A DNA stretch of 64,000 nt from Methylophilus sp. 13. GTDB lineage: Bacteria > Pseudomonadota > Gammaproteobacteria > Burkholderiales > Methylophilaceae. The stretch is taken from assembly GCF_015354335.1 (NCBI RefSeq), contig NZ_JADKYR010000004.1:62001-126000 (forward strand), read 5' to 3'. The position numbers and the translations under genes are program-made. Shown here in pieces: positions 32,589-40,125 of the stretch (position 1 is the stretch's first letter; every line of letters begins with the position of its first letter). Below the pieces are notes generated by a model that was given only the letters and a program-made list of their open reading frames with translations, did not search any database and was not told where the DNA came from.

Positions 32589-33491
<903 letters not shown>

Positions 33492-33581: not shown

Positions 33582-33606
33582 TAATCTGGATGCATCATCC
33601 AGATTA
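33582..33606. repeat. 11-bp inverted repeat overlapping the Tim44-domain gene stop
   Basis: TAATCTGGATG (33582-33592) and CATCCAGATTA (33596-33606) are perfect arms with a 3-base loop. The right arm contains the stop codon of the minus-strand gene ending at 33604. Together with the hairpin at 33521-33553 it gives two strong hairpins in tandem before argB. Confidence 0.4.
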
Positions 33607-34440
33607 GGCTTGCTGAATCCCTGCCAATAACCATGGCGCATTGCTTGGCTGTAGCGCTTTTTGCAAGTGCCAGATTTCATTGATGTGTTCAATCGCACCA
33701 TTGTTTTCGCGCAACTGACCCGAGTAACGCACACTGGCAATGGTGTAAGCGCCTTCATTGACCACCTCAATCAGCTCGGCATCAATATTCAATACCTCGG
33801 TTATTTGTGGGGCATCGCCGCGTTCTTGCAATTGCAGGCTGATTTCAGCATAGACCTCAGGGGTGGTGTATTCACGAATGTCTTGGATGTCTTTGCGGTC
33901 GTTGGCGGCTTGCAGACGAATAAATGAAGCTTTGGCACCACGTAAAAAACTATCCACCGGAAAATCGGCAGGAATATCAGCTTTTATTGTGGATGCAGCG
34001 CTGGCGTTGTATGCGGATTCAGATTGAAATCCGGCGGGGGCGTACGGTGCGCCTGCGCCGGCGTATTGCGGCGGCGAGGCTTGCACATTTTTGTAGCGAC
34101 GCACTAAAAACATCAGCAAGGCAAAGCCTGCAACCACCATCAATAATGTGCTGAAATTATTGGCAAAATCGCCTAATCCGCCGTGTGAAAACAGGGTTGC
34201 CAAGCCGGCACCAATGGCAAGACCGGCCAATGGCCCCATCCATTTGCTCATCCCGTTGCGTGGTGCAGCCGCAGGGGCTGGTTGTGGCGTCGCTTCAGGC
34301 GCACGTTGCATTTGTTTGGCAGGCGCAGGCCGATTTTTACCAAAACTGCCGCCACCGCCCAATCGCTTGGCTTCTGCCACACCAGAGAACAAACTCATGC
34401 AGACCATCAACACCATCAATAGCTTCCAAAACTGTTTCAT
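33604..34440 (-). CDS. Secreted or membrane-bound Tim44-like domain protein
   Basis: A 278-aa protein with a signal peptide (about residues 1-24, ending AEAKR), a low-complexity Gly/Pro/Ala-rich stretch, one or two hydrophobic segments (about 72-108, LAGLAIGAGLATLF and STLLMVVAGFALLMFLV), and a C-terminal Tim44/NTF2-like domain (about 150-275). The domain in bacteria has no settled role. AAGGA precedes ATG 34440. Its insertion between argA and argB is not obviously functional. Confidence 0.82.
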   Translation of the reverse strand: MKQFWKLLMVLMVCMSLFSGVAEAKRLGGGGSFGKNRPAPAKQMQRAPEATPQPAPAAAPRNGMSKWMGPLAGLAIGAGLATLFSHGGLGDFANNFSTLLMVVAGFALLMFLVRRYKNVQASPPQYAGAGAPYAPAGFQSESAYNASAASTIKADIPADFPVDSFLRGAKASFIRLQAANDRKDIQDIREYTTPEVYAEISLQLQERGDAPQITEVLNIDAELIEVVNEGAYTIASVRYSGQLRENNGAIEHINEIWHLQKALQPSNAPWLLAGIQQA

Positions 34441-34612: not shown

Positions 34613-36181
34613 TTACAAAGGTTTCACAAACACCTTGGACTTGCGCTGGAAATTATAGAACTTGAGTTTCTCTTGCGGCAGTTGCTCCACACTTTGTTCG
34701 CTAAAGCCGCGCTCCAGAAACCAGTGCTCGGTGCGGGTGGTCAGGCAAAACAGCTGTTTAAAGCCTTTTTGACTGGCTTGTTGCTGGCAAAAGTTAAACA
34801 GCTTGTCACCGCGGCCACCGCCACGGTAAGCGGGATCTATCGCCAGGCAGGCGAACTCTACCATTTTTTCCTCGTGAAACGGATATAAAGCCGCGCAACC
34901 GATGACGCGGTTATCGTGTTCCATCACATAAAAATAGTTGATCTCCATCTCGATGCGTTCGCGGCCGCGCCGCACCAGAATGCCCTCATTCTCCAGGGGT
35001 TCAATCAACCGCAAAATACCGCCTACATCTTCGATATTGGCCTGACGCATGGTTTCCAGTGACAGTTCAGTGATCATGGTGCCTATGCCCTGGCGCGTAA
35101 ACAGCTCCTGAATAATGGCGCCATCAATGTGGCGCGAGATCAGGTGGGTTCTGGCCACGCCATGCTCGCAGGCTCGCACGGCGGCGGGCAGGTAATAATT
35201 GACGTCCTCGGAATAGAAAATCGGCTCATCACTTTCCTGCACGTTACGTAGCAGGTTGCGCGCCTTGGCCGAGGTCATTTCGCGCAACAATTCGCCGCGC
35301 AGATTCTGGATGCCTTCTGAGTCCATCAGGAAAATCAGTTTTTCTGCATCCAGCGCAATCGCGGCACTCACGGCGACATCTTCCAGGGTCAGGTTAAAGG
35401 TCTCGCCGGTGGGCGAGTAACCCATGGGCGACAACAACACCATCTCGCCATCGTCCAGCCGTTTCTGGATGCCGACCGCATCAATCTTGCGCACTTCGCC
35501 GGTATGTTGCAGATCCACACCGTCGCGTACGCCCAAGGGTTTGGCAGTGACAAAATTACCACTGGCAACACGGATGTCGCTGCCTGCCATCGGCGAGTTG
35601 GCAATGCCCATGGATAACAGCGATTCAATCTCTACCCGGATGGCGCCATTGGCCTCTTTTACCGCCTCCATGGCGGCATCATCGGTAATCCGCAAGCCGT
35701 TATGCAGTTTGGGGGTGAGGTGATCACGTTTCAGGCGTTGCTCAATTTGCGGCCGGGCACCATGGACTAATACCAGTCTGACTTCGAGGCTGGCTAGCAG
35801 GTTGAGGTCGTGCGAAAGCGCCACAAACTGTTGTTCACTGACGACTTCTCCGCCAAATGCAATGACAAAGGTGCTGCCGCCAAAGGCGTGGATATAAGGC
35901 GCCGCAGAGCGAAACCAATGCACAAACTCTTTGCTATTCGTGCTAGAGAGGATGGCGGGTGGCGTGTTGGTCAGTGAGACGGGGGTTAGGTTGGCATCAT
36001 AGAGCCGGCCAGGCGTGGTATGCAGCGCCTGTGCGGCGGCGCGTAGCAGGGCTTCAGAGATGCCAATCTCACCGCGTTCAATGCGCGATAAATTGCTGGC
36101 ATCTGTGCCCATGCGGGCAGCCAGTTGCTGCAAGGTTAAATTTTGCGATTTACGCAATTCCCTGATGTTTGAGCCGAGCAT
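34613..36181 (-). CDS. argA: N-acetylglutamate synthase with N-terminal XRE-type HTH domain
   Basis: Catalyses acetyl-CoA plus glutamate to N-acetylglutamate, the first step of arginine synthesis. The 522-aa protein is about 80 residues longer than usual ArgA. Residues 6-60 form a Cro/C1-type HTH (IRELRKSQNLTLQQLAARMG, then DASNLSRIERGE); residues 61-84 are a linker; from about residue 85 the sequence is classical ArgA, FVHWFRSAAPYI, with an amino acid kinase-like domain (to about 350) and a GNAT domain with acetyl-CoA loop YRGGGRGDKLF. No stop or frameshift separates the parts, and no usable ATG lies near residue 85, so the fusion looks genuine. The HTH may let the enzyme bind DNA and regulate arginine genes; this is inference. 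Confidence 0.88.
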   Translation of the reverse strand: MLGSNIRELRKSQNLTLQQLAARMGTDASNLSRIERGEIGISEALLRAAAQALHTTPGRLYDANLTPVSLTNTPPAILSSTNSKEFVHWFRSAAPYIHAFGGSTFVIAFGGEVVSEQQFVALSHDLNLLASLEVRLVLVHGARPQIEQRLKRDHLTPKLHNGLRITDDAAMEAVKEANGAIRVEIESLLSMGIANSPMAGSDIRVASGNFVTAKPLGVRDGVDLQHTGEVRKIDAVGIQKRLDDGEMVLLSPMGYSPTGETFNLTLEDVAVSAAIALDAEKLIFLMDSEGIQNLRGELLREMTSAKARNLLRNVQESDEPIFYSEDVNYYLPAAVRACEHGVARTHLISRHIDGAIIQELFTRQGIGTMITELSLETMRQANIEDVGGILRLIEPLENEGILVRRGRERIEMEINYFYVMEHDNRVIGCAALYPFHEEKMVEFACLAIDPAYRGGGRGDKLFNFCQQQASQKGFKQLFCLTTRTEHWFLERGFSEQSVEQLPQEKLKFYNFQRKSKVFVKPL

Positions 36182-36255
36182 TTTGCGTTTAATTTAAGGT
36201 TAATTTGCAAAATAATAAATAAAAATGGTTTTTATTGCAAATATTGGGGTGTTGA

Positions 36256-36497: not shown

Positions 36498-37670
36498 TCA
36501 ACTGACTGGCTGCGGGCGGATTGAGCGATAGACACGGTTGCTCTGCCGTTTGCTCAATACCAGCTGCCAGAGTTGCCCTTGCCGGGCGCGGAAATAGCCT
36601 GCACAACACATCAGGTAGTATTTCCACATCCGGTAAAAACTTTCATCATACTTAAACTGCAATTCAGGCCAGGCACGGTTGAATTTGTCCCACCAGGCCA
36701 TCAGGGTGCGGTCATAATCCGGTCCGAAGTTATGCCAGTCTTCAATTAAAAACTTTTCTTCAATCGCCCCAGTGATTTCGCTGGCCGAGGGCAATTTGCC
36801 ATTCGGAAAAATATAGCGGTCTATCCAGGCGTCGGTATGCAGGGCGGTTTTATGATTGCCTATGGTATGCAACAAAAACAGCCCGTTATCCTTAAGCAAA
36901 CGCTGTGCGGTGGCAAAATACGTTTCGTAGTTCTTTTGGCCCACATGCTCAAACATGCCGACCGAGACAATTTTGTCGAATTGACCATGCAACTCGCGGT
37001 AGTCCTTGAGCTGGATATCCACCGGCAATCCTGCACAACGTTCTCTGGCTAAGGCCTGTTGCTCAACTGACACCGTGATGCCGAGCACCTGCACCCCATA
37101 ATGTTGTGTCATATGCTTGGCCAGCCCACCCCAGCCACAGCCGATTTCCAGCACGCGGTCGCCGGGTTGTAAATCCAGCTTTTGGCAAATCATATCCAGC
37201 TTGTGACGCTGGGCTTCTTCCAGCGTTTGCGCATGTTGCCAGTAGCCGCAAGAGTAACTCATGCTCGAATCCAGCATGGCTTCAAACACATCATTGCCAA
37301 TATCGTAATGTTGCTGCGCCACCTGATAAGCCCGGTGCGGCGCTTGCAGGTTAAACAGGGTATGACGAATGATCTCAGCCAATAATTTGAGTCTGGCCGT
37401 CCCGCCCATTTTTTCATCCAGGTCCGCCCGCATGACGCGATGGAAAAACTCGTCCAGTCGGTTGCAGCCCCAGCGGCCCTCGATAAACGCCTGTCCCAGT
37501 CCGAGCGAGCCTTTGGTCAACACATCGCGGTAGACGCTTTCTTCATACACCTGGATATCCCAGGGCGCGTTGCCGTTAATCGTGATCCCAGCGCCCGCCA
37601 GCAAACTGGCCAGCGTATCCGGTGGCGCGGGATGCGCACTGAGGTAATGGTTGGTCGTGGTTTTCGGCAT
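36498..37670 (-). CDS. cfa: Cyclopropane-fatty-acyl-phospholipid synthase
   Basis: Transfers methylene from S-adenosylmethionine to the double bond of unsaturated phospholipid acyl chains, usually in stationary phase or stress. The 390-aa protein has the N-terminal domain seen in Cfa, the segment AMLDSSMSYSCGYW, the SAM loop LEIGCGWGGLAKH (about residues 175-187), and SVGMFEHVG and HTIGNHK in the catalytic half. The gene stands alone with its own terminator. Confidence 0.93.
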   Translation of the reverse strand: MPKTTTNHYLSAHPAPPDTLASLLAGAGITINGNAPWDIQVYEESVYRDVLTKGSLGLGQAFIEGRWGCNRLDEFFHRVMRADLDEKMGGTARLKLLAEIIRHTLFNLQAPHRAYQVAQQHYDIGNDVFEAMLDSSMSYSCGYWQHAQTLEEAQRHKLDMICQKLDLQPGDRVLEIGCGWGGLAKHMTQHYGVQVLGITVSVEQQALARERCAGLPVDIQLKDYRELHGQFDKIVSVGMFEHVGQKNYETYFATAQRLLKDNGLFLLHTIGNHKTALHTDAWIDRYIFPNGKLPSASEITGAIEEKFLIEDWHNFGPDYDRTLMAWWDKFNRAWPELQFKYDESFYRMWKYYLMCCAGYFRARQGQLWQLVLSKRQSNRVYRSIRPQPVS

Positions 37671-39279: not shown

Positions 39280-40014
39280 TTAAAAGTCTCCCCACAGTGA
39301 CTGCATCACGCTCATGGCAGTCAATGCAGCAGTTTCGGTGCGTAAAATCCGTGGGCCAAGCACGATAGACTGGAAGTGATGTTGCGAGGCGAGCGCAATT
39401 TCTGCCGCGCTCAAGCCGCCTTCCGGGCCAATTAATAAATGAATGGCGTTTTTTTGCGGGTTTAGTGATGCCAGCCTTTGTGCACCGACAGGATTCAATA
39501 ACAGGTTAAGGCTGTCAGCGGTCGCGTGCTGGCTCAGCCATTGTGCAAGCGTGAGAGGCGCGTGTACTAACGGAATTATGGCACGGCCACTTTGCTCGCA
39601 GGCGGCAATCACCACGCCTTGCCAGTGTTCGACGCGTTTTTCGGCGCGGTCGCCACTGAGCTTGGTCACGCAGCGCTCGGTGCTTAACGGGAAAATTTCG
39701 CGCACACCCAGTTCCACCGCTTTCTGGATGGTGTAATCCATGCGGTCGCCGCTGGAAATACCTTGTAGCAGGCGGATATTCAGTGGCGATTCATTGCTGA
39801 CCTGTGTGCGGCTGAGGACTTCAACGGTAGCGGATTTTTTCTCGACCTGCGTCAGCGCGCAGAGATAGTCAAAACCATCCCCACAAAACAACATCAACGT
39901 GTCGCCTACTTTGAGCCGCATGACTCTGACTGCATGCGCCATGGCGTTATCACTGAGTGGGACTGATTGGCCCACAGTCAATGCAGCCGGGCTATGAAAG
40001 CGTAAATTACTCAT
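39280..40014 (-). CDS. rsmE: 16S rRNA (uracil-1498-N3)-methyltransferase RsmE
   Basis: SPOUT-class enzyme that methylates N3 of U1498 in the 30S subunit. The 244-aa protein begins [11 protein letters not shown], has the PUA-like N-terminal barrel with [12 protein letters not shown], and the knotted C-terminal domain with [13 protein letters not shown] and [13 protein letters not shown], the SAM-binding loops. ATG 40014 is chosen from resemblance to family starts; ATG 40023 is possible. Confidence 0.92.
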
Positions 40015-40125
40015 GACTGGCATTGTAACCAAAATGCCTCTGTGCGGGCACGGTGGTGACAAGATTCACCTTGACGTCTTAATCACGTACCATAATGGTT
40101 TGATCTAATGGCAGGAGCAACGCTG

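Follow-up and report, generated by a model that had tools for sequence, protein, structure and literature searches.

N-acetylglutamate synthase (NAGS), which catalyses the first step of arginine synthesis, is a classic example of feedback inhibition. Elsewhere in metabolism, enzyme and DNA-binding functions meet in one protein: NadR of enterobacteria carries an XRE-type helix-turn-helix (HTH) ahead of its NAD-pathway enzyme domains and represses genes of its own pathway, while the DNA-binding fold of PutA is a ribbon-helix-helix. An account of the trigger enzymes of E. coli lists BirA, NadR, PepA, PutA and PyrH, with NadR described as multi-target and PutA and PepA as single-target (PMC8249747). 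For NAGS itself, a description of the Neisseria enzyme reports that arginine displaces the N-terminal helix and makes the hexamer ring wider, names K201 and E270 as key residues of the N. gonorrhoeae protein (ngNAGS), and presents ArgH-fused NAGS (H-NAGS) and NAGS/K as enzyme-enzyme combinations (PMC4490483). A survey of proteobacterial regulons reports the repressor ArgR as absent outside the gammaproteobacteria among the classes that it studied (PMC5343134).

The locus described here lies in the window, by which we mean the whole 64,000-nucleotide stretch of Methylophilus sp. 13 DNA that was analysed, and encodes a NAGS with an XRE HTH at its front (HTH-ArgA). It is like NadR in placing an HTH on a biosynthetic enzyme; unlike multi-target NadR, it is a NAGS, and the sole target seen for it is its own promoter, through putative sites. 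With PutA of E. coli it shares the addition of a DNA-binding domain to an enzyme and, as we propose, action at its own locus, but PutA is a catabolic proline dehydrogenase and its DNA-binding fold is a different one. Compared with ngNAGS (PDB 2r8v, 3d2p) it has the same AAK and NAT domains, 37% identity and the same key arginine-site residues, whereas ngNAGS has no HTH and its chain aligns from residue 85 of the window protein on. As in H-NAGS and NAGS/K, NAGS is joined to another arginine-synthesis function; here, however, the partner is a transcription factor domain. The job to be expected of such a protein, arginine-dependent repression of arginine synthesis, is that of ArgR/AhrC, to which it is unrelated. 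A literature search of open-licence papers turned up no title or abstract that deals with a NAGS fused to an HTH.

We consider it likely that HTH-ArgA acts as an autoregulating enzyme-repressor and belongs with trigger enzymes such as NadR and PutA, with arginine as its probable signal. If this is true, a self-repressing NAGS would show how one betaproteobacterial family controls argA, no ArgR having been found above cut-off in the genomes sampled, and allosteric inhibition and gene repression would be joined in one protein with one effector site.

One frame for an XRE domain and a complete ArgA

The HTH-argA gene (34613..36181, minus strand) is a single frame of 522 codons that runs from an ATG at 36181 to a stop at 34613 without an internal stop. 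A first-pass annotation, made by a model from the letters and their open reading frames, had read an XRE HTH and a complete ArgA in this frame; Pfam and NCBIfam confirm both parts. The Cro/C1 (XRE) HTH domain takes up residues 2-61 (35999..36178, minus strand) and is matched by Pfam HTH_31 at residues 2-57 (44.7 bits against a cut-off of 27) and HTH_3 at residues 6-58 (43.4 bits against 23). In an AlphaFold2 model of the window protein (63-sequence alignment, mean pLDDT 88.8, pTM 0.73) its predicted helices span residues 2-12, 17-24, 28-35, 43-52 and 57-60, with pLDDT of about 87-94. The domain is followed by a linker (residues 62-79; 35945..35998, minus strand) that is predicted to be flexible; residues 67-79 fall below pLDDT 50 and are predicted to be disordered.

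The NAGS core opens with an N-terminal helix (residues 80-97; 35891..35944, minus strand), seen as a helix in the model and corresponding to the one displaced by arginine in ngNAGS. Further along the same strand come the amino acid kinase (AAK) domain (residues 104-349; 35135..35872; Pfam AA_kinase), the arginine-binding motif ELFTRQGIGT (residues 359-368; 35078..35107), which fits the pattern E-(L/I)-(F/M)-(T/S)-X-X-G-X-G-T, and the GNAT (NAT) catalytic domain (residues 377-522; 34616..35053; Pfam and NCBIfam), within which the Pfam GNAT match covers about residues 411-494. Two ArgA equivalogs span the enzyme part, NCBIfam NF003641 at residues 80-522 (687 bits, cut-off 344) and TIGR01890 at residues 86-522 (580 bits, cut-off 203). 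When the model core is compared with native structures, the TM score by target length is 0.90 for 3d2p, which contains arginine, and 0.65 for 2r8v, the first-ranked hit. By sequence, the catalytic domain is kept and shares one chain with a DNA-binding domain, which is the layout of a trigger enzyme.

The annotation's remark that no ATG near the junction could give ArgA alone holds for the window gene, in which the stretch from about residue 54 to the ArgA junction contains no ATG, GTG or TTG. Across 100 representatives the same stretch contains an ATG in 8, and in none of the 100 does a start codon stand behind a Shine-Dalgarno-like stretch near the junction, which rules out an internal start yielding ArgA alone. 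An assembly or frameshift artefact as the source of the fusion is ruled out by its conservation across the genus and the family. The HTH is under purifying selection in the two groups in which this was measured: for the HTH, pairwise dN/dS has a median of 0.036 in 16 Methylophilus genes and of 0.141 in 30 Methylotenera-like genes, and for the linker the medians are 0.073 and 0.498, respectively (66-119 pairs per value after removal of those outside the usable range).

The fusion is a fixed trait of the Methylophilaceae

All 22 genomes of the genus Methylophilus have an HTH-argA match that begins at residue 1 or 2. In the family as a whole, an argA match (E<=1e-60) was obtained in 175/187 Methylophilaceae genomes, including 118/119 of the more complete and cleaner ones, and the HTH coding sequence is present in 174 of the 175. 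The match tables cover the HTH in 171/175. Each of the other four genomes has its own explanation: G068 keeps the HTH in frame, G181 contains the HTH coding sequence in a gene that holds an N-run, and G077 has the HTH together with a frame change near residue 173, so that all three were rejected as HTH-less members, while in G119 argA is cut by a contig end, making it the one family exception to HTH coverage. The fusion is a fixed trait of the Methylophilaceae, a family of methanol users, and its named carriers are species of Methylophilus and Methylotenera together with family MAGs. Genomes of only ~1.2-1.4 Mb (groups g2 and g15) also retain the HTH. The HTH-argA of G077 (locus L251) appears as two frames split near residue 173, either through an assembly error or as a broken gene.

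In the order Burkholderiales, argA was found in 281/300 genomes; among the matches listed for these 300, all those outside the Methylophilaceae start at residue 57 or later and none covers the HTH. Pfam HTH_3 is present in 49/63 members of the alignment used (A1), and these 49 are all of its family members, the 14 members from elsewhere giving no HTH match. Altogether 0/17 genes from outside the family (the 14 in A1 and three further ones) gave a Pfam HTH when taken from the match start on, with three of them extended 66-100 codons upstream. L108, L116 and L119, outside genes with an early match start, were considered as possible carriers and rejected, as there was no Pfam HTH in their frames extended by 66-100 codons; their upstream extensions resemble run-on G+C-rich frames. 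The domain order that had been proposed for a search among relatives is found throughout the Methylophilaceae and, among the listed matches, nowhere else in the order. HTH-less homologues of the otherwise conserved gene, which the first-pass annotation had held to count against its reading, do occur outside the family; within the Methylophilaceae none was seen.

Two putative operator sites lie over the argA promoter

Upstream of HTH-argA there are two similar sites, spaced 29-31 bp or about three helical turns. In the window, where all four elements are on the minus strand, putative operator site 1 (TTTGCAATAAAAACCAT, 36225..36241) overlaps a -35 hexamer TTGCAA (36235..36240), and putative operator site 2 (TTTGCAAATTAACCTTA, 36195..36211) lies 30 bp from site 1 and directly after a -10 hexamer TATTAT (36212..36217) set off by a 17-nt spacer, both hexamers being consensus matches only. 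A repressor on both putative sites would cover the argA promoter. As the two sites are located to the base, binding with and without arginine is directly testable.

The form of the sites differs between groups. In Methylotenera-type genomes each putative site is a dyad, TTTGTA-N5-TACAAA, and in several deeper genera its form is closer to TTTGCATTTAAACGCAAA. Beyond the Methylotenera type the pair is only loosely similar, and the sites of the window's own genus are the least convincing. Methylophilus sites retain one half, TTTGCA, which is present at site 1 in 16/16 Methylophilus sequences, and the two are mostly exactly 30 bp apart; since these are mainly half-sites, the operator case is weaker in the window's own genus. 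The small genomes of group g2 (L135-L159) have argA promoters with TTTGTATAAATTACA-like dyads, the second site lying at other spacings or positions and overlapping the start codon in some.

The strict form of the pair occurs in 49/187 family genomes, belonging to 4/24 genera, at one place in each, and all 49 places are 18-62 bp upstream of HTH-argA; a reversed-pattern control gave 0 matches in all 187 genomes. It is missing from the remaining 138/187, of which 12 have no argA match. Among 300 genomes of the order a single match was obtained, outside the family and in a G/C-containing sequence unlike the family's. Apart from this one match, every strict pair found in these searches stood at the argA of a genome that has the fusion.

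We also scored the best pair in the 110 bp upstream of argA against 200 dinucleotide shuffles (p<=0.05), dropping identical upstreams and those shorter than 80 bases. With a consensus read from part of the tested set, largely the Methylotenera-type sequences, the test was passed by 58/77 sequences from other Methylophilaceae (38/39 of the Methylotenera-type ones and 20/38 of those from deeper genera), by 14/25 from g2, at varied positions, and by 4/16 from Methylophilus, the window's own site giving p=0.08. Only 1/46 HTH-less argA promoters passed; for these controls the start codon was assumed to be the final Met ahead of the core, and three family loci (L132, L133 and L144) among the 49 loci without a matched N-terminus were excluded.

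Within the genus, the half-site pair TTTGCA-N24-TTTGCA stands at argA in 13/22 genomes. It has 85 matches in the 22 genomes (13 in the reversed control), of which 14 are at argA, and is therefore not specific. The genome that contains the window has two such pairs, one at argA and one elsewhere, the former being the only one in the 64-kb window. HTH residue 39, which is two after ERG and is either L or one of Q, I and V, varies along with operator type, TA or GC, L going with TA in 40/41 cases and Q with GC in 32/38; on the tree, operator type changes 9 times and residue 39 changes 3 times, and as this leaves 2-3 independent pairs and no significance, the association is only a hint.

These results lend support to the regulation of its own gene that the first-pass annotation had suggested for HTH-ArgA: the argA promoter carries paired putative sites, and these accompany the HTH fusion. 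If the HTH did not bind DNA and served, for example, as a scaffold for the hexamer, the paired sites would belong to another regulator or be a feature of the promoter. The overlap of site 1 with the -35 box and the degenerate dyads in the window's genus would fit such an explanation. We nevertheless regard it as very unlikely, since the strict sites accompany the fusion and, in matched genomes, are found only at its own gene, since site 2 is situated past the -10 box, in a place not expected to hold a promoter element, and since the NLSR-x-E core of the HTH recognition helix is widely conserved.

The strict pair was found at argA alone

The first-pass annotation had further proposed control of other arg genes, which is not borne out: the strict pair is at argA alone in the 49 genomes, and upstream regions of argC show nothing comparable. 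In 16 of the latter (14 from the family, 2 from outside) the best pair scores 12-16, compared with medians of 13.5 for HTH-less controls and, for argA, 20 in other Methylophilaceae and 17 in Methylophilus. As these scores are near those of the HTH-less controls, argC was rejected as a target. A regulon of single sites was rejected as well: in 10 genomes such sites had 141 matches, and the reversed control had 145. Eight places away from argA were inspected; six lie within open frames of at least 100 aa, and two (L186 and L188) between frames.

It appears most improbable, then, that HTH-ArgA is a wider regulator of the arginine genes in the way of ArgR. Pathway logic would favour such a role, which would also be compatible with weak sites, or single ones, at the promoters of other arg genes, argC alone having been individually inspected. 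Against it stand the single occurrence of the strict pair per genome and always at argA, argC pair scores that are mostly below those of argA, single sites no more frequent than in the control, and the location of most of the inspected places inside open frames.

Key arginine-site residues are conserved and no ArgR was found above cut-off

The residues K281 and E359 of the window protein, which align with K201 and E270 of ngNAGS, are invariant in 63/63 sequences of the alignment, and some 18 residues connect the HTH to the counterpart of the arginine-moved helix. With the arginine-site residues kept and the HTH joined at the helix that moves in ngNAGS, arginine sensing by HTH-ArgA is plausible by analogy, and we infer that arginine would change its DNA binding. 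ArgR (PF01316) was found above cut-off in 0/120 family genomes and 0/120 genomes of the order, while 8/14 control genomes gave a match above cut-off; weak partial matches below cut-off numbered two in the family and one in the order. The window protein itself has no PF01316 match at E up to 1.

We propose that ArgA would assemble as the usual hexamer and that pairs of its HTH domains would occupy the two sites, one of them over the -35 box and the other immediately past the -10 box. The bound pairs would exclude RNA polymerase and so repress argA, together with argB where it is close behind. By extension from the Neisseria enzyme, arginine may move the N-terminal helix and widen the ring, and this could set the HTH domains for binding, so that a single arginine-driven change would bring about both enzyme inhibition and gene repression. 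HTH-ArgA would then do for argA in the Methylophilaceae what ArgR does in the gammaproteobacteria. This account in its entirety, with the NAGS hexamer itself as the arginine repressor of argA, one allosteric site, HTH pairs on two operators and a single origin at the root of the family, from a lineage that lacked ArgR, is put forward tentatively, and we would stop a little short of calling it probable.

HTH-ArgA might also repress its own promoter in answer to something other than arginine: constitutively, as negative autoregulation that steadies the enzyme level, or in response to its substrates glutamate or acetyl-CoA, or to the concentration of the protein by way of its oligomer state. The operator evidence for this would be identical, and the long linker, if disordered as modelled, could break the link between the HTH and the helix that arginine displaces. 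However, the key arginine-site residues are conserved, the HTH is attached immediately ahead of the helix whose Neisseria counterpart is displaced by arginine, and no ArgR above cut-off was found that would sense arginine for the cell, making a signal other than arginine rather unlikely in our judgement.

Neighbourhood and origin of HTH-argA

The nearby argB on the same strand that the first-pass annotation had noted is present: the acetylglutamate kinase gene (TIGR00761) occupies 32589..33473 on the minus strand, like argA, and a Tim44-domain gene (33604..34440, minus strand) lies between the two. The gap between argA and argB matches is below 300 bp in 18/22 genomes of the genus and above 1 kb in the other four (G000, G002, G013 and G019). 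On the other side of argA, a cyclopropane fatty acyl phospholipid synthase gene (36498-37670, minus strand) separates it from the rsmE side (39280-40062).

A search of 150 order genomes for a donor of the HTH (E<=1e-7) gave as non-ArgA matches only two XRE frames, 44% and 46% identical, and no clear donor. Most simply, argA gained the HTH at its front where it stood, in a single event in the ancestor of the family. An rsmE-like end (LWGDF-stop, recognised by eye and by pattern) lies at most 400 bp upstream of HTH-argA in 53/118 loci. In Methylotenera mobilis (L083) an rsmE-like frame is followed by two further genes and then by argA and argB, which are 61 bp apart, and an HTH-less betaproteobacterial argA (L102) is immediately preceded by an rsmE-like frame.
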